Source: an uncultured Tolumonas sp. (lineage in GTDB: Bacteria; Pseudomonadota; Gammaproteobacteria; Enterobacterales; Aeromonadaceae). From it: a stretch of 64,000 nt of DNA. Under the pieces are notes generated by a model. That model saw only the letters and a program-made list of their open reading frames with translations, was not told the origin of the DNA and made no database searches. Made by a program: the position numbers and the translations under genes. This document shows positions 31,354 through 58,277 of the stretch, piece after piece. The stretch covers positions 1,065,001 through 1,129,000 of the forward strand of contig NZ_OY782757.1 of assembly GCF_963678185.1 (NCBI RefSeq), written 5' to 3'. Numbering within the stretch: position 1 is the stretch's first letter; each line of letters starts with the position of its first letter.

Positions 31354-32469
31354 TTATGGTTTAGTAACCATCCCCGCTGCGGTAGTTTGAAACAGTTTTA
31401 CATACTCGCCATAACCTGCTTCCGCCAACTTTTCCGCCGGAATAAACCGCAGCGCCGCCGAATTCATGCAATAACGCATACCAGTAGGTGGCGGGCCGTC
31501 GTCAAACACATGCCCCAGATGTGAATCCGCTTTTTTGCTGCGCACCTCAGTGCGCGTGGTAAACAAGGTATTGTCTTCCACCAGCACGATATTTTCTTTC
31601 ACCAGCGGTTTGGTAAAACTCGGCCAACCGGTGCCGGAATCGTATTTATCCAGTGAGCTAAACAGCGGTTCACCCGAGACAATATCGACATATAAACCGG
31701 GTTTCTTGTTATCCCAATAGGCATTATCGAATGGCGGTTCAGTGCCTGCTTCCTGCGTCACTTTGTATTGCAATGCCGTCAGTTGTTTTTTGAGATCCAC
31801 TTTCATCTGTGCAGCAGTTGGGTCGTATTTCACGTTATCCCAGATTTTATGCAGGAAATCATCACGACCAGAACGGGAACGATAATAGTGATAACGGATC
31901 GGATTTTTCTTGTAATAATCCTGATGATATTCCTCGGCCGGCCAGAATTTTGGGGCATCTAATACGGGTACAGTGAGTGGGCGATCAAAAATACCGCTGG
32001 CCTGCAATTTGTCTTTTGACGCCAGTGCTAACTGCCGTTGTTCGTCGTTATAGACATAAATAACCGGTATATATTCATGCCCGCGATCGACAAATTGCCC
32101 GCCATCGTCCGTCGGATCAATCTGATGCCAGTAGGTGTTTAACAACGTGTTGTAAGAAACTTTTTTGGGGTCATAAATCACCTGAACCACTTCGGTGTGG
32201 CCACCAGAACCATAATCCTGATAAGTCGGGTTGTCCGTTGTTCCACCAGCGTAACCGGATGTCACCGAGGCCACACCATCCAGCGTTTCAAATGGTTTCA
32301 CCATGCACCAGAAACACCCACCAGCAAACAGCGCCTTTTCTTCTGGCGTTGAGTTCATAGCCCCCATCGCCATAGGTTCAGACATTTTATCGGCGGATTT
32401 CGCGACAACCACACCCGCAATAATCAACATGGCCAGAGTGGCGAGCGACCTTATTCCTAACAGTTTCAT
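31354..32469 (-). CDS. msrAB: Exported methionine sulfoxide reductase A/B fusion
   Basis: A 371-residue MsrA-MsrB fusion that repairs both S- and R-methionine sulfoxides. It has an N-terminal signal or membrane anchor ([20 protein letters not shown]) and so should act in the periplasm. MsrA has its catalytic Cys in GGCFWC (C52). MsrB has GTGWPSF and the catalytic Cys in [11 protein letters not shown] (C334). The zinc CxxC pairs of other MsrBs are not seen. ATG 32469 is chosen over 32508 because GGAG precedes it at 6 nt. Its promoter (32540-32567) matches two other sites nearby and points to the divergent ECF sigma factor. Confidence 0.95.
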
Positions 32470-32539
32470 AATGATCTCCGGGTTCTTTCCAGACACCTTC
32501 AGCGTCATATTTGCAGAATATGTTCTGCGTTCTATTGAA

Positions 32540-32567
32540 TAGTCGGAATAGCGGTGTTTTTCTTACA
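32540..32567 (-). promoter_or_regulatory. ECF sigma promoter of msrAB
   Basis: On the minus strand: TGTAAGAAA (-35 part starts at 32567), 13 nt, CGACTA (32545-32540). The same 15 fixed positions recur at 37716-37743 and 37820-37847. Its -10 ends 70 nt before the msrAB ATG. Confidence 0.8.
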
Positions 32568-32660
32568 TTAGAAATAAATATTTATTTTCCTGAACTTATT
32601 GGTGTTGGGTTTCCGTATCACAATGGCACAACCTGATTTTTAAATTTTGAGCTATCAAGG

Positions 32661-32689
32661 TGTAATAAAACGAGTGATAACTCAGACTA
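32661..32689 (+). promoter_or_regulatory. Variant ECF sigma promoter of the sigma-factor gene
   Basis: TGTAATAAA, 14 nt, AGACTA: one base off in each box and one base longer than the three consensus sites. It ends 54 nt before the sigma ATG. This suggests weaker, positive autoregulation. Confidence 0.6.
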
Positions 32690-32743
32690 TACCTATACAC
32701 TCAGACTGATATCAGCAGGGCTATTTCATACAAGGGAAAATTA

Positions 32744-33367
32744 ATGGCGGAATACATGGAAGAGCGTAATGAACATTCCATCAATACCCAAACTAAGTCA
32801 CTTTTTGATGATAAATTTTTGGAACAAATCCGCCGCCAGATGCTGAAATTTGCCACGCTACAGCTTTCTGATTCGCACCTTGCCGAAGATGTGGTGCAGG
32901 AAGCGTTAGTCGGGGCGCTCAAAAATGCCCGTTCATTTGGTGGGCGCTCGGCGTTAAAAAACTGGGTCTTTGCAATTCTCAAAAATAAGATCGCGGATGC
33001 GCTACGACATAAGCATCGTGTCATTGATGCAAGTAGTTTGCTGCGAGAAGAAGACGAAGAGCAAGATTTTGCCGATCTGTTCAATGAACGAGGTTTTTGG
33101 CCAAGAGGTGAACATCCAATAACTTGGTCTAGCCCTGACGAGTCATTGCGTGAAGGCCAATTTTGGCGGGTATTTGAAACCTGTTTGGATAACTTACCCG
33201 GTAATCAGGCGCGCGCATTTATGATGCGGGAATTTATTGAATTCGATTCCGACGAGATCTGTGCAACGTTAGAAATCTCCGTTAGCAACCTCAATGTCAT
33301 GTTATATCGCGCCCGTATGCGCCTGCGGGAATGTTTAGGCAATCATTGGTTTATAGAAAGAGGCTAA
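32744..33367 (+). CDS. ECF-family RNA polymerase sigma factor
   Basis: A 207-residue ECF sigma factor. Region 2 is FATLQLSDSHLAEDVVQEALVGAL followed by the -10-reading WVFAILKNKIADALR. Region 4 has the HTH FIEFDSDEICATLEISVSNLNVMLYRARMRLRECL. The ATG has AAGGGA 6-7 nt upstream. It is followed after 2 nt by a small anti-sigma gene and is divergent from msrAB. Similar sigma/zinc anti-sigma pairs in Neisseria control msrAB. Three identical promoter elements in this locus are the probable targets. Confidence 0.93.
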   Translation: MAEYMEERNEHSINTQTKSLFDDKFLEQIRRQMLKFATLQLSDSHLAEDVVQEALVGALKNARSFGGRSALKNWVFAILKNKIADALRHKHRVIDASSLLREEDEEQDFADLFNERGFWPRGEHPITWSSPDESLREGQFWRVFETCLDNLPGNQARAFMMREFIEFDSDEICATLEISVSNLNVMLYRARMRLRECLGNHWFIERG

Positions 33368-33369
33368 AC

Positions 33370-33573
33370 ATGCTGAACTGCCGTGAAGTCACTCGGTTAT
33401 TGTCAGAAGCACAAGAACGCGAACTGACATTAAAGGAACGTTTATCGCTGACTGTTCATCTTTCGTGGTGCTCTGGATGCCGGACTTTTAGTAAGCAGAT
33501 GCAATCGATCCGCCAGATCACTCGCGCTTATGTAAAAGGAAAAAATGAAGCTGCCAACGATGAACACAAATGA
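33370..33573 (+). CDS. Zinc-finger anti-sigma factor (short ZAS type)
   Basis: A 67-residue soluble protein with the zinc-binding anti-sigma motif HLSWCSGC (H30-x3-C34-x2-C37) and an additional Cys4 near the N-terminus. No membrane helix is present, unlike RseA-type anti-sigmas, so the signal is probably sensed in the cytoplasm through zinc/thiol chemistry. The frame is open upstream, but ATG 33370 fits the 2-nt spacing after the sigma stop. It should hold the sigma factor inactive until oxidised. Confidence 0.88.
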   Translation: MLNCREVTRLLSEAQERELTLKERLSLTVHLSWCSGCRTFSKQMQSIRQITRAYVKGKNEAANDEHK

Positions 33574-33595
33574 TGAATAAGCATGTTTAATTTGC

Positions 33596-34207
33596 CTAAT
33601 CAGAATTAAACACCTGAATTCCCGCCACAATTCGGGTAACGGTCGTAAGCAGACACAACCCGGCAAAAATGTATGCCAGCAGTGGAAACCAGGCTGGCAA
33701 CAAACACATCAGCACAAACACCAAGATTGTTTCAGTCGCTTCCGTTAGCCCGCCCAGATAATAAAAGCCTTTAGTCGGATAATCAGTGCTGATTAACCCT
33801 TGCTTCGCCGCCATCACAGCAAAAGCCAGAAACGAACAGCCTGTGCCGATAAAGCTATAAATCAGCAGCGTTGCGGCCAGCGCATTTTGTGGTGGATCAG
33901 CAAAAGCAAACGCTAATGGAATCGACGAATAAAACAAGAAATCAAACACGCTATCAAGAAAAGCCCCGCGATGTGTTGGCGTTGTTAAGCGGGCAATCGA
34001 ACCATCGAGACCATCGGCTAGCCGATTGAGAAAAATACTCAGCAGCGCCCAATAATAATGCTGTGTGATGATCAGCGGTAACGCCGTCATCCCAACGACA
34101 AAACCTGCAACAGTCACCGAGTCAGCGCGTACATTCCAGGTAATAAGCTGTAACGCAATTTGCTGTAACGGACGATGCACGATGGCGTTCAGTGATTTAT
34201 CCAGCAT
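33596..34207 (-). CDS. ynjF: CDP-alcohol phosphatidyltransferase family protein
   Basis: A membrane protein of 203 residues with the complete CDP-alcohol transferase signature: DGLDGSIAR, seven residues, GAFLDSVFD. It closely resembles E. coli YnjF (for example KGFYYLGGLTEATETILVFVL). The alcohol acceptor is unknown. It is last in the ynjBCD group, 32 nt after ynjD, the E. coli order except that ynjE is missing. It converges on the anti-sigma gene. Co-transcription from the ECF promoter before ynjB is likely. Confidence 0.9.
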   Translation of the reverse strand: MLDKSLNAIVHRPLQQIALQLITWNVRADSVTVAGFVVGMTALPLIITQHYYWALLSIFLNRLADGLDGSIARLTTPTHRGAFLDSVFDFLFYSSIPLAFAFADPPQNALAATLLIYSFIGTGCSFLAFAVMAAKQGLISTDYPTKGFYYLGGLTEATETILVFVLMCLLPAWFPLLAYIFAGLCLLTTVTRIVAGIQVFNSD

Positions 34208-34239
34208 ATGCAGTTGCCTTGTTTATAAATTTGCTCATT

Positions 34240-34881
34240 TTATGAAACTGCCCAGTGACTGATTTCAATTACCCGCCCCAATCGCGGCACATCGGCCAAA
34301 TCATGGGTCACGAGTAATGTCGGTATTCCTTTGCGTGAGATTTGTTCAAACACAAAGGCACGGAATTGCTCACGCAACACGGCGTCCAGTTTGGTAAACG
34401 GTTCATCCAGTAACAAAGCTTCGGGCTCGGCCAATAACGCGCGGAGTAAACTCACCCGGGCTCGTTGCCCGCCAGACAGCGTAGCCGGGTCGCGGTCATG
34501 AAACCCCGCCAGCCCAACGTCGGCTAACGTTGTTTCAATATGAGCCCGACGCTGATCTCGCCCCTTGATTTTTGCAGGTAAAACAAACGCCAAGTTCTGC
34601 CCAACGCTTAAATGAGGAAACAGCAAATCATCCTGAAACAAGATCCCGATGCGGCGTTGTGCAATCGGCAAACTGTCCCGACGAGTGCCATTCAGCCATA
34701 ACTCACCACTAGCAGTGAAAATCGGCGCCAGATCGCCGATCATCCAGTTCAACAACGTCGATTTACCTGAACCGGAGACCCCCATCACCGTTACGATCTC
34801 ACCTGCAGCCACGTTCAGATCAAGCCCGTTGATGATGATTTGTCCCGGTTTCGATAAATGCAGACTTTTGATTTCCAACAT
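34240..34881 (-). CDS. ynjD: ABC transporter ATP-binding protein YnjD
   Basis: An ATPase of 213 residues with Walker A GVSGSGKST, signature LSGGQRARVSLLRAL, Walker B ALLLDEPFTKLDA and switch His LVTHDLADV. The ATG at 34881 (MLEIKSLHLS) is used because AAGGA lies upstream and it begins 1 nt after the ynjC stop; the frame runs open to 35010 inside ynjC. It energises the YnjB/YnjC importer, whose substrate is not established. Confidence 0.92.
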   Translation of the reverse strand: MLEIKSLHLSKPGQIIINGLDLNVAAGEIVTVMGVSGSGKSTLLNWMIGDLAPIFTASGELWLNGTRRDSLPIAQRRIGILFQDDLLFPHLSVGQNLAFVLPAKIKGRDQRRAHIETTLADVGLAGFHDRDPATLSGGQRARVSLLRALLAEPEALLLDEPFTKLDAVLREQFRAFVFEQISRKGIPTLLVTHDLADVPRLGRVIEISHWAVS

Positions 34882-34882
34882 A

Positions 34883-36523
34883 TCAGTGCAGTCCTTTTCT
34901 GTGGCGAAAAAGCCATGTTGGTAACCCAGCCGCACAGGCGAATGCCAGCAGCGGTAACAAGATCTGTAATAATGCCTGCACCGCCAAAATTCGGCGGTTT
35001 CCGCCCGCACTCAATGCCACTGCTTCGGTGGTCACCGTATCAAAGCGCCCACCACCAGCAAATAACGTTGGCAGATATTGCGCAATACTGACGGCAAAAC
35101 CGATCGCTAAGGCCGCCATGATGGGTCGGAGCAACATTGGCCATTTTACGCGCAGACAGGCCATGAAATGCGAAACGCCCAAAGCTTGCGTTGTCGTCAT
35201 GATCCGTCGATCAAAGGCACGATAAGGGCCTACCAGCGTTAACAACATATATGGCAACACCCACTGTAAATGACTCCAGATCAACCCGGTTGCCGAACCA
35301 TCTAAATGCAAATGCAATAAAGCGGAATACTGCCCTGCCATCAACGGCAAAGCCGGCACGATCAGCGGTAAATACAGCAACGCATTAAGTTGCTGTGGCC
35401 CCCACTCCAACCAGAACAACACCAGCGGTAAACACAGAAAACAGACGGCAAAACCAAGCCAGAGCGAGGTTTGAAACGGCACAAAATCAGCCTGCAGCCA
35501 ACTTGTCAACGTGATGGCTTCCGGCCATATCGCGGGGAAAAACCAGCCGCCAGCAAACGACCACAACAGCAAAAGGAAAATAACCGCATAGCCAACGCCA
35601 AAGAATAATAAATGTAACCAAGGGACACGGCTTCTCTGTTTCGGAAAACGTTCCCCCAGCGGATAACGACGAAAATGCAAACCTTGTTGCCACACAAATC
35701 GAACTAAGGCCACCATCATTAAGAGAAGCCCCAACAGCATCAACGAGGCCGCGCTACCTTGCGCTTGTAATTTTTCATCCGGGTTCGTCAGCCATTGCCA
35801 GATCAACACCGCAAACGTGGGCGGATTGGTGGGGCCAAGAATGAGTGCCATATCGACAACGGATAATCCATACGCCAATACCGCAGCCAACGGCCAACCC
35901 ATACGCGGTAAGATCTGTGGCAATAAAATCACACGCCAAACCTGCGAACGGCTATAACCCAACGTTTGCCCGATCGTCATCTGTTTGGTGATTTCCTGTT
36001 CGCTTAATACGGCAAATAACACCCATAACAAGAACCAACTCTCTTTGATCGCTAACGCCAGCCCCAAGCTCAGCCCGTAACTATCTTGCACTGTGATCCA
36101 ATTAGGCGGCATTACCCACCCACTTACAAACACCATCAAACGCGACAACCAACCCGATGGTGCAATCAGAAAAAAGAAACCAATTGCAAATGCCGCATGC
36201 GGTATCGCCAGCAAGACAGGCAATCGTTGTCGAAGCTGTAGCCAACGCCTTCCGGGATACAGCTGCATCGCAATCGTGATAGCCAAAAGGAACGCCAGCA
36301 TAGTGCCAATAACTGCCGACAACATCGTGGCCAATAATGCCTGTAACCACTGCGGATCAATCCAAAGTGTTTGCCAGACAGACAGGTGGAAGGCCGGTGA
36401 CATGGCCCAAAATAGACCGGGTATCAACGGCATAAAAATCAGCGCAACCAGAGCCATGGCAAGCCCAAACATGAACTGATCGCGCCATGTGTGCATTAAT
36501 GCGAACCGTAGCGTTTTAGCCAT
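34883..36523 (-). CDS. ynjC: ABC transporter permease YnjC (double permease)
   Basis: A 546-residue permease with about 12 helices, formed by two fused permease halves as in ThiP/FbpB-like proteins. Segments such as LPVLLAIPHAAFAIGFFF, LGLALAIKESWFLLWVL and VVDMALILGPTNPPTFAVLIWQWL match E. coli YnjC. The start at 36523 (MAKTLRFAL) overlaps ynjB by 28 nt. An ATG at 36496 forming TAATG with the ynjB stop is an alternative. Partner of YnjB and YnjD. Confidence 0.9.
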   Translation of the reverse strand: MAKTLRFALMHTWRDQFMFGLAMALVALIFMPLIPGLFWAMSPAFHLSVWQTLWIDPQWLQALLATMLSAVIGTMLAFLLAITIAMQLYPGRRWLQLRQRLPVLLAIPHAAFAIGFFFLIAPSGWLSRLMVFVSGWVMPPNWITVQDSYGLSLGLALAIKESWFLLWVLFAVLSEQEITKQMTIGQTLGYSRSQVWRVILLPQILPRMGWPLAAVLAYGLSVVDMALILGPTNPPTFAVLIWQWLTNPDEKLQAQGSAASLMLLGLLLMMVALVRFVWQQGLHFRRYPLGERFPKQRSRVPWLHLLFFGVGYAVIFLLLLWSFAGGWFFPAIWPEAITLTSWLQADFVPFQTSLWLGFAVCFLCLPLVLFWLEWGPQQLNALLYLPLIVPALPLMAGQYSALLHLHLDGSATGLIWSHLQWVLPYMLLTLVGPYRAFDRRIMTTTQALGVSHFMACLRVKWPMLLRPIMAALAIGFAVSIAQYLPTLFAGGGRFDTVTTEAVALSAGGNRRILAVQALLQILLPLLAFACAAGLPTWLFRHRKGLH

Positions 36524-37677
36524 TCCGTCTCTAACGCCCCCATCCAACTGGCATGTGGTTCAGCTAAAGTTGGCACCTTTTCCACCAGCATACCGGGCGC
36601 CTTGTTAACTAACTCGATATGCAACGCCGCCGGGATTTTTTTGTCTTTTAAGACACTGCTATCACCCCAAACCGCAATATCCGCTTTTCTGGCCTGTGCC
36701 TCTGGTGACAACAGAAAATTGGCAAACACCTGAGCACCGGCTTTCGCATGGGCATTGATTGGAATTGCCAGAAAATGCACATTCCCTATCGTGCCTTTGG
36801 TAAACCCAAAGCTGTACGCAGTCGCTGGTAGTTGTTGGGTAGCGATCAGATTAGCCGCTTCATTGGGGTTAAACGTCAGCGACAGTTTCAGCTCACCATC
36901 GCCTAGCATACGGTGCATCTCTGCCACACTGGCTGGAAATGCTTTTCCTTGCCGCCAAAGCAATGGATGTAACTGATCCAGATAAGCCCACAATGGTTTG
37001 GTGACTGCCGCAAAATCTGCGGTAGAAACAGGTTGTTGCAACACCGCAGGATCAGGCGTTAATTCCAACAACAACTGTTTTAAAAAGGTCGAACCATGAA
37101 AATCGGGCGGTTTAGGATAAGTCACCAGCCCCGGATTGGCTTTCGCAAATGTCAGCAATTCCATCGCGGAGTGCGGCGGAACCGGTGCTTTAGCTTTATC
37201 CGCAATAAAGGTTAATTGCGCCGTTCCCCACGGGCTCTCCAGCCCCTCAGTTGGCTCAGAAAAATCAACGCGAACGGGTTTGTTCAGATCAACATATTGC
37301 CAGTTTGGCAACTGTTCCGCCCAAGGGCCGAACAACAATTTATCTTGTTTGAGTTTTTTAAAGTTTTCCCCATTTACCCACATCAAATCGACCGAGCCGT
37401 CATCCTTGGTTCTTCCGGCAGCAACTTCCGTTTGAATACGTTTCACAATTTCAGCGGTGTCAGTCACTTTCACCTGTTTTACCGTCAGACCGAAACGCTT
37501 ATTGACCTCTAATGCCGCCCAGGCAATGTACGCATTCGTCGCTTCGCTGCCGCCCCAGGCATTGAAATACACCGTCTGCCCTTTAGCCGCTTGTTGCAAA
37601 GTGGCCCAATCGTCAGTGGCCTTTGTTATGGAGGTAAAAAGACAAGCCAGCATGCCGACAATAATACTAAGCTTCAT
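36496..37677 (-). CDS. ynjB: ABC transporter solute-binding protein YnjB
   Basis: A periplasmic binding protein of 393 residues with a signal peptide (cleavage near ITKA, about residue 20). The core motifs YFNAWGGSEATNAYIAW, VDLMWVNGENFKKLK and LLFGPWAEQLPNWQYVD match E. coli YnjB. The family is related to thiamine/iron-type binding proteins, but its ligand is unknown. It is first in the ynjBCDF group. A promoter identical in plan to that of msrAB ends 38 nt upstream, placing the transporter in the putative ECF stress regulon. Confidence 0.92.
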   Translation of the reverse strand: MKLSIIVGMLACLFTSITKATDDWATLQQAAKGQTVYFNAWGGSEATNAYIAWAALEVNKRFGLTVKQVKVTDTAEIVKRIQTEVAAGRTKDDGSVDLMWVNGENFKKLKQDKLLFGPWAEQLPNWQYVDLNKPVRVDFSEPTEGLESPWGTAQLTFIADKAKAPVPPHSAMELLTFAKANPGLVTYPKPPDFHGSTFLKQLLLELTPDPAVLQQPVSTADFAAVTKPLWAYLDQLHPLLWRQGKAFPASVAEMHRMLGDGELKLSLTFNPNEAANLIATQQLPATAYSFGFTKGTIGNVHFLAIPINAHAKAGAQVFANFLLSPEAQARKADIAVWGDSSVLKDKKIPAALHIELVNKAPGMLVEKVPTLAEPHASWMGALETEWLKRYGSH

Positions 37678-37715
37678 GTGTGGATCTCCGGGTAATGGAA
37701 TAGTGCATAACTCGT

Positions 37716-37743
37716 TAGTCGGGAAAGCATTCGATTTCTTACA
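37716..37743 (-). promoter_or_regulatory. ECF sigma promoter of ynjBCDF
   Basis: Minus strand: TGTAAGAAA from 37743, 13 nt, CGACTA ending at 37716. All 15 fixed positions agree with the msrAB and 37820 sites. It stands back to back with the 37820 promoter in a 201-bp divergent gap. Confidence 0.8.
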
Positions 37744-37819
37744 CTTAATTATTGTTCGCCTATAAAAAAGTGCCGGATTCTTCTTTTATACGCTGCTCAG
37801 CATTCATTCTGACTTCCGG

Positions 37820-37847
37820 TGTAAGAAATAACGAGCCACGACGACTA
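37820..37847 (+). promoter_or_regulatory. ECF sigma promoter of the TVP38-oxidoreductase gene
   Basis: TGTAAGAAA (37820-37828), 13 nt, CGACTA (37842-37847), ending 31 nt before the ATG at 37879. Third exact copy of the element. Confidence 0.8.
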
Positions 37848-37878
37848 ATCTCATAGAACACACAAATGAGATCTTCTG

Positions 37879-40062
37879 ATGAAAAAACTAATTCTGCTTG
37901 GCATCGTGATCGGGGTGATCAGCGTTTTTTTCACGCTCGATTTACAGCACTATCTGACCCTGAACGGCTTAAAATCCGGCATGGATCAGTTTGCGATCTT
38001 GCGCACCACCTCACCCGTAACGGTCGGAACATCATTTTTTCTGCTGTATGTCATTGTGGCGGCCTTTTCATTGCCCGGAGCAGCAATAATGACCATCGCT
38101 GCCGGTGCACTTTTTGGCCTATTCTGGGGTTCAGTGATTGCCTCTTTTGCCTCAACCATCGGTGCAACACTCGCGTTTCTTACTGCGCGCTATTTACTCC
38201 GCGATCTGGTGCAAGCCCATTTTGGCGACAAATTAAAAGCTATTAATGAAGGAATGGCGAAAGATGGTGCTTTTTATCTGTTTTCCCTGCGCCTTATCCC
38301 GTTGTTCCCCTTTTTCCTCGTCAATCTGCTGGTTGGACTGACTCCAATTTCCATCCGACGTTACTATTGGGTCAGTCAAATCGGTATGTTGGCCGGTACG
38401 GTCGTTTATGTTAATGCCGGCACTCAACTGGTCAAAATCACCGGTTTAGCCGACATCGCCTCGCCCGGATTACTGTTTTCATTTGCCTTGCTGGGCATAT
38501 TCCCACTGTCAGTAAAACGATTTACTCATTTTTTGCAGCAGCGTCGTGTCTATGCAAAATGGACAAAACCCAAACACTTTGATCGGAATCTGATCGTCAT
38601 TGGCGGTGGTGCCGCCGGTTTAGTATCTGCCTATATTGCGGCAGCGGTAAAAGCGAAAGTAACCTTGGTAGAAGCGCATAAAATGGGGGGCGATTGTCTG
38701 AACTATGGCTGTATTCCCAGCAAAGCACTGATTAAATCCGCGCACGTTGCTCATACCCTAAAACATGCCGAACAATATGGTCTCGAAAATCTCAACTGTT
38801 TCGAAAACCAAACCCCCTCGTTCAGTTTTCGTAAAGTCATGGCCCGAATACATGAAGTGATCAAAACAGTCGCCCCACATGACAGTATTGAGCGCTATAC
38901 CCAGCTGGGTGTTGATGTTGTTGAGGGTTACGCCACGATCGTTGACCCATGGACAGTGGAAATAAAACGCAATGATGGCACAACACAAAGATTAACAACC
39001 CGCAGCATTATCATTGCCGCCGGTGCTCGTCCGTTTGTACCTATGTTACCCGGTTTAGACGCAGTTGGTTATGTCACCAGTGACACCTTATGGGATGAAT
39101 TTGCCAAACTGGATGCACCACCCGCCCGCTTAGTTGTGTTAGGTGGTGGCCCCATTGGCTGCGAATTAGCCCAGAGTTTTGCCCGATTAGGTTCACAAGT
39201 TTTTCAAATTGAAATGGCGCCACGGATCTTAAGCCGCGAAGATGTGGAAGTATCTGAATTTGCCCAACGCGCACTGGAACAAGATAGTGTGGCAGTGCTA
39301 ACCGGCCACAAGGCGCTACGTTGTGAGCAAAAAGGCGAACGCAAATTCATTATGGTGGAACATGAAGGCAGCGAACAACAGATTGAGTTTGATGCATTAA
39401 TTTGCGCAGTTGGCCGCGTTGCCCGTTTATCCGGTTATGGTCTGGAAGCATTAGGCATTGAAACCAAACGCACCGTGCTCACCAACGAATATCTGGAAAC
39501 CCTCTACCCGAATATTTTTGCCGCCGGAGATGTCGCTGGCCCCTACCAGTTTACGCATACCGCTTCCCATCAAGCTTGGTATGCCGCCGTTAATGCTCTG
39601 TTTGGTGACTGGAAAAAATTCAAAGTCGATTACCGCGTTATTCCATGGACAACCTTTGTTGACCCGGAAATTGCGCGCGTCGGTCTAAACGAACAGGAAG
39701 CCAAAGAAAAAGGCATCGCCTATGAAATCACCCGTTATGGTATTCACGATCTTGATCGCGCCATCGCAGACAGCACCGCGCATGGTTTTGTGAAGGTATT
39801 AACCCTTCCCGGTAAAGATCGCATCCTCGGCGTCACCATCGTCGGGGCGCATGCCAGCGATCTGTTGGCTGAATTTGTGCTGGCGATGAAACATGGTTTG
39901 GGGCTTAACAAAATTCTGGCCACAATCCACACCTATCCAACCATGTCAGAAGCCAATAAATATGTCGCTGGCGAATGGAAACGTCAGCATGCACCACAAC
40001 GCATATTAATATGGCTGGCGTGTTACCATTCATGGAAACGCAATGAAAAAATAACATATTAA
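37879..40062 (+). CDS. TVP38/TMEM64 membrane domain fused to a mercuric-reductase-like flavin disulfide oxidoreductase
   Basis: A 727-residue fusion. Residues 1 to about 225 form a TVP38/TMEM64 (DedA-like) membrane domain (FSLPGAAIMTIAAGALFG, RLIPLFPFFLVNLLVG). From about 236 comes a pyridine nucleotide-disulfide oxidoreductase: FAD loop VIGGGAAGLVSAY, redox pair C273-x4-C278 in GDCLNYGCIPSK, NAD(P) loop VVLGGGPIGCELAQSF, AAGDVAGPYQFTH and the dimer-domain HTYPTMSEANKY. The heavy-metal-binding C-terminal cysteines of MerA are absent. The acceptor is unknown, perhaps a membrane thiol or quinone. The ECF promoter and the neighbouring msrAB suggest a role in oxidative damage. Confidence 0.92.
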   Translation: MKKLILLGIVIGVISVFFTLDLQHYLTLNGLKSGMDQFAILRTTSPVTVGTSFFLLYVIVAAFSLPGAAIMTIAAGALFGLFWGSVIASFASTIGATLAFLTARYLLRDLVQAHFGDKLKAINEGMAKDGAFYLFSLRLIPLFPFFLVNLLVGLTPISIRRYYWVSQIGMLAGTVVYVNAGTQLVKITGLADIASPGLLFSFALLGIFPLSVKRFTHFLQQRRVYAKWTKPKHFDRNLIVIGGGAAGLVSAYIAAAVKAKVTLVEAHKMGGDCLNYGCIPSKALIKSAHVAHTLKHAEQYGLENLNCFENQTPSFSFRKVMARIHEVIKTVAPHDSIERYTQLGVDVVEGYATIVDPWTVEIKRNDGTTQRLTTRSIIIAAGARPFVPMLPGLDAVGYVTSDTLWDEFAKLDAPPARLVVLGGGPIGCELAQSFARLGSQVFQIEMAPRILSREDVEVSEFAQRALEQDSVAVLTGHKALRCEQKGERKFIMVEHEGSEQQIEFDALICAVGRVARLSGYGLEALGIETKRTVLTNEYLETLYPNIFAAGDVAGPYQFTHTASHQAWYAAVNALFGDWKKFKVDYRVIPWTTFVDPEIARVGLNEQEAKEKGIAYEITRYGIHDLDRAIADSTAHGFVKVLTLPGKDRILGVTIVGAHASDLLAEFVLAMKHGLGLNKILATIHTYPTMSEANKYVAGEWKRQHAPQRILIWLACYHSWKRNEKITY

Positions 40063-57152: not shown

Positions 57153-58277
57153 TTATATGCCTACCTCTACAGAAATTCGCTGAGCAACACGATCTAAAGG
57201 TAACGATTCAGATGAAATTCCCGCTTTAGCCACAGCCTGAGGCATGCCATAGACAACACAACTGGCTTCATCCTGTGCCCAGATCATTGCCCCCTGATCT
57301 TTCAGCAGTCGAGCACCATCTCGCCCATCGGCGCCCATACCAGTCAGAATGATAGCAAGCACCTTGTCACCATGTGATTTAGCTAAAGACGCGAAAGTGA
57401 TATCAACACATGGTTTGTAGTTGACCTTGTCATTACCGTCAATTATGCGTAAACGAGCTGATGTTCCACGCCCATCAACCAGCATTTGTTTACCACCTGG
57501 GGCTAAATAGGCATTCCCAGGTTTAAGCACATCTCCATCTTCGGCTTCTTTTACCGATATTTTGCACAAGCTATTAAGGCGCGCAGCAAATGCGCTGGTA
57601 AACGTAGAAGGCATATGCTGAATAAGCAAAATTGGATGTGGAAAATTTGCTGGCAATTGCGTCAATATTGTCTGCAACGCAACAGGACCACCAGTCGAAG
57701 TTCCTATCGCAACCAGCTGATAACTTTTACCCGAACGTTTGTAATGCACAGGCGCAGACACTTTTTCTGCGACAGGTTGTGTTCGCAGAGAACTCGTGAC
57801 GCTAGTAATGTTACGAGCTAATGAGGAGCCCGTGTTGGTCGGCGTCGGTGTAGCCACTCTCGGTGTCGTCATAAACATACGACGACGAGAAAGTGCCTTG
57901 ATCCGCTGCTGTAATAATGTAATTGCTTCTTGTTTATCCCGAGCAATATCTTCAAATTTTTTCGGTAAAAAATCCAGAGCACCAGCATCTAACGCATCAA
58001 GCGTCGCTTTGGCACCTGCTTGCGTTAATGATGAAAACATTAAAATTGGTGTAGGACATTTCGCCATTATTTCACGAACAGCAGAAATACCATCTAAAAC
58101 AGGCATTTCAATATCCATCGTGATCACATCTGGACGCAAATTCAGGGCTTTTTCTATTGCTTCCTTACCATTCACAGCAGTATCCACTACCTCAAGTAGT
58201 GGATCCTGATTAACGATCTCTGTGACGCGGCGCCGGAAGAAACTGGAGTCGTCCACGACTAGTACTTTTACGGCCAT
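57153..58277 (-). CDS. cheB: Chemotaxis response regulator protein-glutamate methylesterase CheB
   Basis: A 374-residue CheB demethylating and deamidating chemoreceptors. The receiver domain has Asp in [13 protein letters not shown]. The methylesterase domain has catalytic Ser in [10 protein letters not shown], His in [10 protein letters not shown] and Asp in [11 protein letters not shown]. The linker (about 135-180) is Thr/Pro/Ser-rich. It follows cheA by 21 bp. No cheR is present in the window. Confidence 0.95.

Follow-up and report, generated by a model that had tools for sequence, protein, structure and literature searches.

Can a single sigma factor account for the expression of a methionine sulfoxide reductase, an orphan transporter and a membrane-associated oxidoreductase encoded side by side? 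The question is raised by a locus of an uncultured Tolumonas sp., within a window of 64,000 nucleotides that forms the whole stretch analysed here (contig NZ_OY782757.1, positions 1,065,001 to 1,129,000). It encodes an extracytoplasmic function (ECF) sigma factor with a zinc-type anti-sigma factor, the periplasmic fusion protein MsrAB, the ATP-binding cassette (ABC) transporter YnjBCD with YnjF, and a TVP38/VTT membrane domain fused to an FAD disulfide oxidoreductase (TVP38-FAD; Table 1). Judged from sequence, it is highly likely that the sigma/anti-sigma pair, msrAB, ynjBCDF and TVP38-FAD form a compact, self-amplifying ECF sigma regulon, and the sigma factor very probably turns on msrAB, TVP38-FAD and the transporter through one shared motif. 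A first-pass annotation, made from the DNA alone, had proposed that the sigma factor reads this motif and so unites these genes with its own; the sites are present and conserved, lie in trans to the sigma gene in relatives and co-occur with it bar one exception, the genome G007.

The motif, TGTAAGAAA-N13-CGACTA, matches exactly at three places in the window, before msrAB, ynjB and TVP38-FAD, on the strands and at the positions first reported; the near copy described before the sigma gene is likewise in place, and a further site at 58234 departs from the motif at two positions. Throughout the 3,948,912 bases of the genome these three are the only exact matches, where about 0.007 would be expected by chance (arithmetic with equal base frequencies), so the motif is not frequent genome-wide. 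With up to three mismatches the window holds four matches against a shuffle mean of 1.40, and four were reached in 6 of 100 shuffles; this number is not unusual, and exact identity is what stands out. With up to two mismatches the genome yields three exact and four two-mismatch sites (7), against 12 + 9 (21) for the backwards control, and two-mismatch sites therefore carry no meaning. The relaxed pattern TGTAAKAA-N14/15-MGACTA has four matches in the genome, exactly the four proposed sites, against 0 + 1 in the backwards control. The shorter TGTAAG-N15/17-CGWCTA also has four, three of them the window promoters, but does no better than its control (1 + 3), so that specificity requires the full motif. 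All four proposed sites are upstream of, and correctly oriented to, their genes, the motif starting 98 bp (msrAB), 66 bp (ynjB), 59 bp (TVP38-FAD) and 83 bp (sigma gene) from the start codon. Five other near matches in the genome were rejected as sites: four fall inside long open reading frames (ORFs), including one that sits at the 3' end of its ORF and faces the following gene, and the fifth lies antisense between two collinear genes.

Conservation in relatives points the same way. Within the family, 23 of 61 genomes have the sigma gene, and they belong to two of the five genera. Five of the 11 genomes of genus g1 carry it (G000, G003, G018, G024, G033), each with the motif upstream of the sigma gene. 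The whole locus with all four sites is kept in G018, G024 and G033, where the fixed bases are constant and the spacers variable; the msrAB promoter site shared by these three also occurs, with N14, in G003 and G030. In G003 the sigma gene adjoins a bufferin cluster at 1.69 Mb and the targets lie at 2.88-2.89 Mb, with motifs before TVP38-FAD (N14), msrAB (N14), ynjB (its -10 box one base off) and the sigma gene; since the target sites persist despite a sigma gene 1.2 Mb away, its action would be in trans. TVP38-FAD starts 59-61 bp from the motif in g1, in Ciceribacter and in 4 of the 10 motif-bearing genomes of genus g2.

The same predicted promoter also precedes bufferin (copper-chelator) clusters in sister genomes. 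The cluster of DoxX, DUF2282, DUF692 and DUF2063 genes is accompanied by the motif in G018, G033 and G003. In the first two it comprises doxX, bufA (DUF2282-like), bufB (PF05114) and bufC (DUF2063-like), the labels being assigned by eye except for PF05114, and separate motifs precede doxX and bufA (in G018, L148:7896-10567); in G003 bufA follows a motif of the form CGTAAGAAA. These arrangements favour an alternative in which the regulon is real but has copper or another thiophilic metal as its main signal, with the oxidant label secondary, which we regard as a reasonable possibility though not as our expectation. It gains from the frequency of the motif before bufA (16 of 20 sigma-bearing cases) and, in the literature (cited here and below from the portions of each paper available), from the copper chelation by bufferins (PMC12452194) and from the action of Caulobacter SigF, with DUF2282/DUF692 targets, under chromium (PMC3511200). 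Against it, the DoxX cluster of Haemophilus influenzae is RpoE2-dependent under hypochlorous acid (HOCl), and msrAB is tied to the same factor and stress (PMC7907618); a domain search of the window genome gave no match to PF05114, the bufB family; and a Microbulbifer cluster for a copper-binding ribosomally synthesized and post-translationally modified peptide, whose regulon membership is not established, was not copper-induced (PMC12538549). The first-pass annotation had called the locus an oxidant/thiol stress system. That label keeps the precedent of relatives studied by others, but its naming of the stimulus does not stand as a finding, and the bufferin branch points equally to copper or other thiophilic metals; both an oxidant and a thiophilic metal would be live as signals.

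The pattern [TC]GTAA[GTC]-N15/17-[CA]GAC was counted within 250 bp upstream of the target genes and of other ORFs of at least 120 amino acids. At sigma-bearing loci it precedes 64 of 112 targets (bufA 16/20, msrAB 5/5, ynjB 6/6, TVP38-FAD 17/29, sigma gene 20/52) against 18 of 719 other ORFs; at sigma-lacking loci, 1 of 46 targets and 1 of 183 other ORFs. The proposed co-occurrence of motif and sigma/anti-sigma pair in related genomes agrees with these target counts, with the intact motif of G007 as its exception. A contig scan of the genomes kept 80 loci, of which the 14 nearest were annotated and 66 were unused; the test took 12 of the 14 (L064 and L065 were left out) and counted sister genomes several times. 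Excluded were G021 (L155), G030 (L151), the duplicates L150, L232 and L233, loci L254-L256, tblastn matches that were sub-threshold or started past query residue 70, targets with less than 80 bp upstream, and the doxX, bufB and bufC promoters.

Genus g2 provides 18 sigma loci (L156-L173). Directly upstream of the sigma gene stand bufABC and doxX in 7; TVP38-FAD lies within about 3.5 kb in 5, and neither TVP38-FAD nor buf genes are in the fetched stretch in 6. At 11 of the 18 loci a motif stands upstream of the sigma gene (8 with N14, 3 with N13); the seven without one are the seven behind buf genes, and all seven of these have the motif at bufA. Among 16 sigma-bearing genomes, 10 have the motif within 200 bp of TVP38-FAD (background rate of the pattern, 0.0076 per 200 bp), and 8 of them carry TVP38-FAD on another contig or more than 75 kb from the sigma gene. 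In the six misses, three TVP38-FAD genes overlap an upstream ORF, two lie 31 and 45 bases after a gene of radical S-adenosylmethionine (rSAM)-like type, and the site in G014 is degenerate.

Several observations weigh against the proposed regulon, or limit it. The relaxed pattern was chosen after part of the data had been viewed, and the Fisher value of the counting test (5e-48) is descriptive only, because its pattern was set post hoc and related genomes are not independent. Sigma genes outside the family have the motif upstream in only 4 of 29 cases. Among the sigma-lacking TVP38-FAD genes counted, 20 of 23 (g4) begin 2 or 5 bases behind a preceding ORF; the contrast between sigma-bearing and sigma-lacking loci is thus a description, and the 20 g4 controls, like G032, are weak because TVP38-FAD starts just after, or overlaps, another ORF. 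At a threshold of E 1e-70 fused msrAB was found in none of the 18 sigma-bearing g2 genomes, so that msrAB is no fixed member of the regulon. G021 (95% complete, about 730 contigs) and G030 (70%, about 450) have motif sites although the sigma gene was not found in them, and sites with no or one mismatch occur elsewhere, outside the analysis (G010:C55, G053:C66, G045:C13, G024:C1:547453, G021:C100). G007 has msrAB, ynjBCDF and TVP38-FAD, but a search at a threshold as loose as E 0.001 gave no homologue of the sigma factor; an intact TGTAATAAA-N14-CGACTA stands 75 bp before an FAD-dependent oxidoreductase gene beside ynjF (L144:3141-4316), a degenerate site lies 63 bp before ynjB, and there is no motif at msrAB or TVP38-FAD. 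This intact site argues against a strict one-to-one link of motif and sigma gene; it may be a relic, or the motif may have another reader. A G024 site in L177, identical in G018, was rejected as antisense inside a gene that resembles rlmN by eye. In G015 (87% complete) we found no match to the sigma gene, the motif or TVP38-FAD.

The site in G007 would also fit an alternative in which the motif is bound by another regulator, such as a repressor, that travels with these genes, and is not a sigma promoter at all. We consider this very improbable: the two-block form with its 13-14 base spacer is in register with the Neisseria sigma-E promoter, the motif also precedes the sigma genes themselves, and the spacer is lost in G011, which has no such sigma factor (a single 25% match at E 9e-4). 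G011 likewise carries msrAB, ynjBCDF and TVP38-FAD, with the motif absent at all three; before TVP38-FAD, where G003 has a spacer, TGTAA is joined directly to TTCGACTA (TTCGACTATAGC).

Recognition by the sigma factor is also consistent with sites further afield. Of 369 genomes sampled across the class, 11 have the sigma gene; among 11 regions fetched from the ten other genomes, TVP38-FAD is near it in three (L182, L183, L186; a partial 38% match in L185 was left uncounted), and L186 reads bufABC-doxX-TVP38-FAD-sigma-anti-sigma with the motif before bufA. Sigma matches occur in 66 plasmid records, 50 of them from Burkholderia, and TVP38-FAD in 91, of which five and four, respectively, were opened. 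A plasmid of Ciceribacter thiooxidans (Alphaproteobacteria) carries sigma, anti-sigma, TVP38-FAD, ynjF, ynjB, ynjC and ynjD collinearly, with TGTAAGATT-N13-CGACGA 61 bp before TVP38-FAD and TGTAAGAAC-N13-CGAC 63 bp before ynjB; in Sphingopyxis the sigma gene is followed by TVP38-FAD, with TGTAAGCAT-N13-CGACCA. On Pantoea and Enterobacter plasmids the sigma gene adjoins a bufferin cluster and the motif is at bufA. That the three window matches are copies of one duplicated promoter, or chance repeats, is a reading to which we give almost no credence: their 15 positions are exactly identical, but spacers and flanks differ among the three, the sites are kept in place with other spacers in G003 and G030, Ciceribacter has sites at both TVP38-FAD and ynjB, and this conservation in relatives already disfavours such a reading.

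TVP38-FAD and ynjBCDF also occur without this sigma factor, and the module is therefore independent of the sigma tie. In genus g4 the sigma gene is found in none of 23 genomes, and TVP38-FAD and ynjBCDF stand together in 18 of 20 fetched loci, the remaining two being cut by the end of the fetched stretch. A Pseudoalteromonas and a Pseudooceanicola plasmid likewise have both without this sigma factor, the latter with a distant sigma/zf-HC2 pair (29%, 62 bits) about 2 kb beyond the cluster.

Some further observations concern the neighbours of these genes. On the Pseudoalteromonas plasmid (L256) one strand carries a TonB receptor, TVP38-FAD, DUF547, ynjBCD, ynjF and a sterol desaturase, a run that might reflect outer-membrane uptake feeding the TVP38-FAD/ynj module. 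The sigma gene is on plasmids of Pantoea, Enterobacter, Moraxella and Acinetobacter (L193, L196, L197, L195), beside bufferin-type genes in the first three; the Moraxella set includes an IS4 transposase gene, and on the Acinetobacter plasmid TVP38-FAD is about 4 kb from the sigma gene. Sphingopyxis (L257) and Pseudooceanicola (L254) likewise have genes annotated as FAD-dependent oxidoreductases close to TVP38-FAD. In L156, L053 and L220 a gene just before TVP38-FAD has an ArsS/selenodomain rSAM-type C-terminal signature, recognized by eye, as does one upstream of bufA in L058, and in Acinetobacter portensis (L195:10587-13764) a motif-like site precedes an annotated arsS gene leading into TVP38-FAD; TIGR04167 has no match above cut-off in 11 genus genomes, and an ArsS-type rSAM protein was rejected as a general member.

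How such a regulon would work can be outlined by analogy. In the unstressed cell the 67-aa anti-sigma factor would hold the sigma factor through its zinc site (C4, H30, C34, C37). Once thiols are oxidised or a thiophilic metal displaces the zinc, the sigma factor may be freed, and it would bring RNA polymerase to four promoters that read TGTAA-G/T-AAA, 13 or 14 bases, C/A-GACTA. Four units would be transcribed: sigma with anti-sigma, giving self-amplification; msrAB, for periplasmic methionine repair; ynjBCDF, for an ABC importer with a CDP-alcohol phosphatidyltransferase-type enzyme; and TVP38-FAD, for a membrane disulfide oxidoreductase. We infer the binding of the sites by the sigma factor, the zinc-thiol chemistry of the switch, the stimulus, and the roles of YnjBCDF and TVP38-FAD; that the stimulus would be an oxidant or thiol stress follows relatives studied by others. 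At the membrane TVP38-FAD might conceivably reduce disulfides or quinones; YnjBCDF might import a stress-related compound.

A broader reading, which we offer tentatively and think rather unlikely as it stands, is that YnjBCDF and TVP38-FAD are an envelope module of the sigma regulon in two proteobacterial classes, an importer with a membrane disulfide oxidoreductase, recovering or detoxifying an oxidised thiol or thiophilic-metal complex beside bufferins or in their place. If true, the orphan YnjBCD transporter could be assigned to a class of function. The regulon itself would tie this transporter to a stress response through a sigma factor of a type that senses redox state or metals, and one signal would join methionine repair, the chelation of copper by bufferins (in sister species) and the orphan YnjBCDF/TVP38-FAD genes. 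We found no evidence on the cargo of YnjBCD, and the sigma tie makes the question directly testable through a switchable promoter. The bufferin branch and the spread into Alphaproteobacteria, both from relatives' genomes, go beyond the first-pass annotation.

The identities first proposed for MsrAB, the ECF sigma factor, the zf-HC2 anti-sigma factor, YnjF, YnjD, YnjB and TVP38-FAD agree with domain searches (Table 1); the msrAB start, first placed at 32508, is likely 32469 on reading the sequence. The sigma factor has Sigma70_r2 and Sigma70_r4_2 domains and scores 314.6 bits against NF009196 (cut-off 287). Directly downstream of its gene, the anti-sigma factor exceeds the cut-offs of zf-HC2 and NF052368, and its four zinc-site residues are the same in all 15 homologues of the alignment. 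YnjB scores 530.5 bits against NF008633 (PRK11622; cut-off 203). Among solved structures a single-protein search with YnjB had no match at E 0.001, and a profile search gave weak, short-stretch matches, mostly to polyamine binders, which are insufficient to name a cargo. YnjC has no Pfam match and is named from its position and weak permease matches; as these fall in both halves, they suggest two fused permease units. TVP38-FAD (727 aa) has an N-terminal VTT domain followed by the FAD disulfide-oxidoreductase half, with GGDCLNYGC and HTYPTMSE (by eye). Its best sequence matches among solved structures are mercuric reductase and dihydrolipoamide dehydrogenase; assignment of the FAD half as MerA was rejected, as TIGR02053 scores 354.5 bits, below the curated cut-off of 454.45.

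Table 1. Genes and predicted promoters of the locus (window positions).
Feature	Position	Strand	Basis
msrAB, periplasmic methionine sulfoxide reductase A/B fusion	31354..32469	-	PMSR + SelR domains; start 32469 by eye
msrAB promoter (predicted), TGTAAGAAA-N13-CGACTA	32540..32567	-	motif scan; conserved in relatives
sigma gene promoter (probable, autoregulatory), TGTAATAAA-N14-AGACTA	32661..32689	+	relaxed-motif scan
ECF sigma factor (NF009196/TIGR02943)	32744..33367	+	domain and profile matches
zinc-type (ZAS) anti-sigma factor, 67 aa, C4, H30xxxC34xxC37	33370..33573	+	zf-HC2/antisigmaE family
ynjF, CDP-alcohol phosphatidyltransferase family	33596..34207	-	domain match
ynjD, ABC transporter ATPase	34240..34881	-	domain match
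ynjC, ABC permease	34883..36523	-	sub-cut-off permease matches; place between ynjB and ynjD
ynjB, periplasmic substrate-binding protein	36496..37677	-	NF008633
ynjBCDF promoter (predicted), TGTAAGAAA-N13-CGACTA	37716..37743	-	motif scan; matching site in Ciceribacter
TVP38-FAD promoter (predicted), TGTAAGAAA-N13-CGACTA	37820..37847	+	motif scan
TVP38/VTT membrane domain fused to FAD pyridine-nucleotide disulfide oxidoreductase, CxxxxC	37879..40062	+	domain matches

Among known systems, YnjBCD belongs to the same transporter family as the product of E. coli ynjABCD. The VTT proteins YdjX and YdjZ of E. coli are, unlike the fusion here, separate proteins, whose genes presumably sit beside the ynj genes. 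A sigma link of this kind is not named for ynjABCD in the available portions of PMC2731931, where BaeR data show modest changes of ynjA (1.6-fold) and ynjB (1.4-fold). A Sinorhizobium TVP38 gene is tabulated next to a merA1 gene in work on another subject (PMC12445080), and a Brucella sigma factor paper deals with HOCl (PMC8315932). Among the matches listed from the open-licence literature, with subscription papers mostly outside it, we found nothing linking this sigma type with YnjBCDF or TVP38-FAD. The suspicion that this link is undescribed thus holds for the YnjBCDF/TVP38-FAD branch within that literature; the promoter class, the sigma type and the msrAB link are known, as the Neisseria and H. 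influenzae precedents below make clear.

The ECF16 group is similar in content. Caulobacter SigF has a small regulon with DUF2282/DUF692/DoxX genes (PMC3511200), and Bradyrhizobium EcfF/OsrA one with Msr enzymes (PMC3420878). Their promoters, GTAACC-N16-CGAA and GTAAC(g,a)-N14-15-(c,t)CG(t,a), differ from the TGTAAG-N16-CGACTA of the window, and the anti-sigma factor of SigF is a protein of six transmembrane segments with DUF1109 (NrsF-type), not a 67-aa zf-HC2 protein; membership in ECF16 was rejected on these grounds.

RpoE2 of H. influenzae, with its 67-aa anti-sigma factor HrsE, controls msrAB, the DoxX cluster and a gene for a DMT transporter, one stress being HOCl, and it shares with the present locus the zinc-type anti-sigma factor and a gene near msrAB; it differs in its other targets (the DMT gene and MtsZ) and its very weak autoregulation, and YnjBCDF and TVP38-FAD are not among the targets named in the available text (PMC7907618). 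Sigma-E (Ecf) of Neisseria meningitidis and N. gonorrhoeae controls msrA/msrB and itself; its named members are the sigma operon NMB2140-2145, a DoxX/DUF cluster and a small RNA, and do not, in the portions available, include YnjBCDF or TVP38-FAD (PMC2893595, PMC3240639). The Neisseria sites read GTMAGBWTT-N12/13-CGTCTAAH with the start site six bases on, and their -10 box is CGTCTA where the window has CGACTA (T for A); their 21-22 base box register matches the N13/N14 spacing here (PMC2893595). The Neisseria-type arrangement GTAAG...CGWCTA in that register is found before msrAB and the sigma gene of the window, the -10 box of the latter being AGACTA. Finally, the control of msrAB in Neisseria by an ECF sigma/zinc anti-sigma pair, taken as established at the outset, agrees with the published account of MseR and of msrA/msrB (PMC2893595, PMC3240639), and MseR has its Cys4 and His30x3Cys34x2Cys37 at the same positions as the 67-aa anti-sigma factor described here (PMC2893595).

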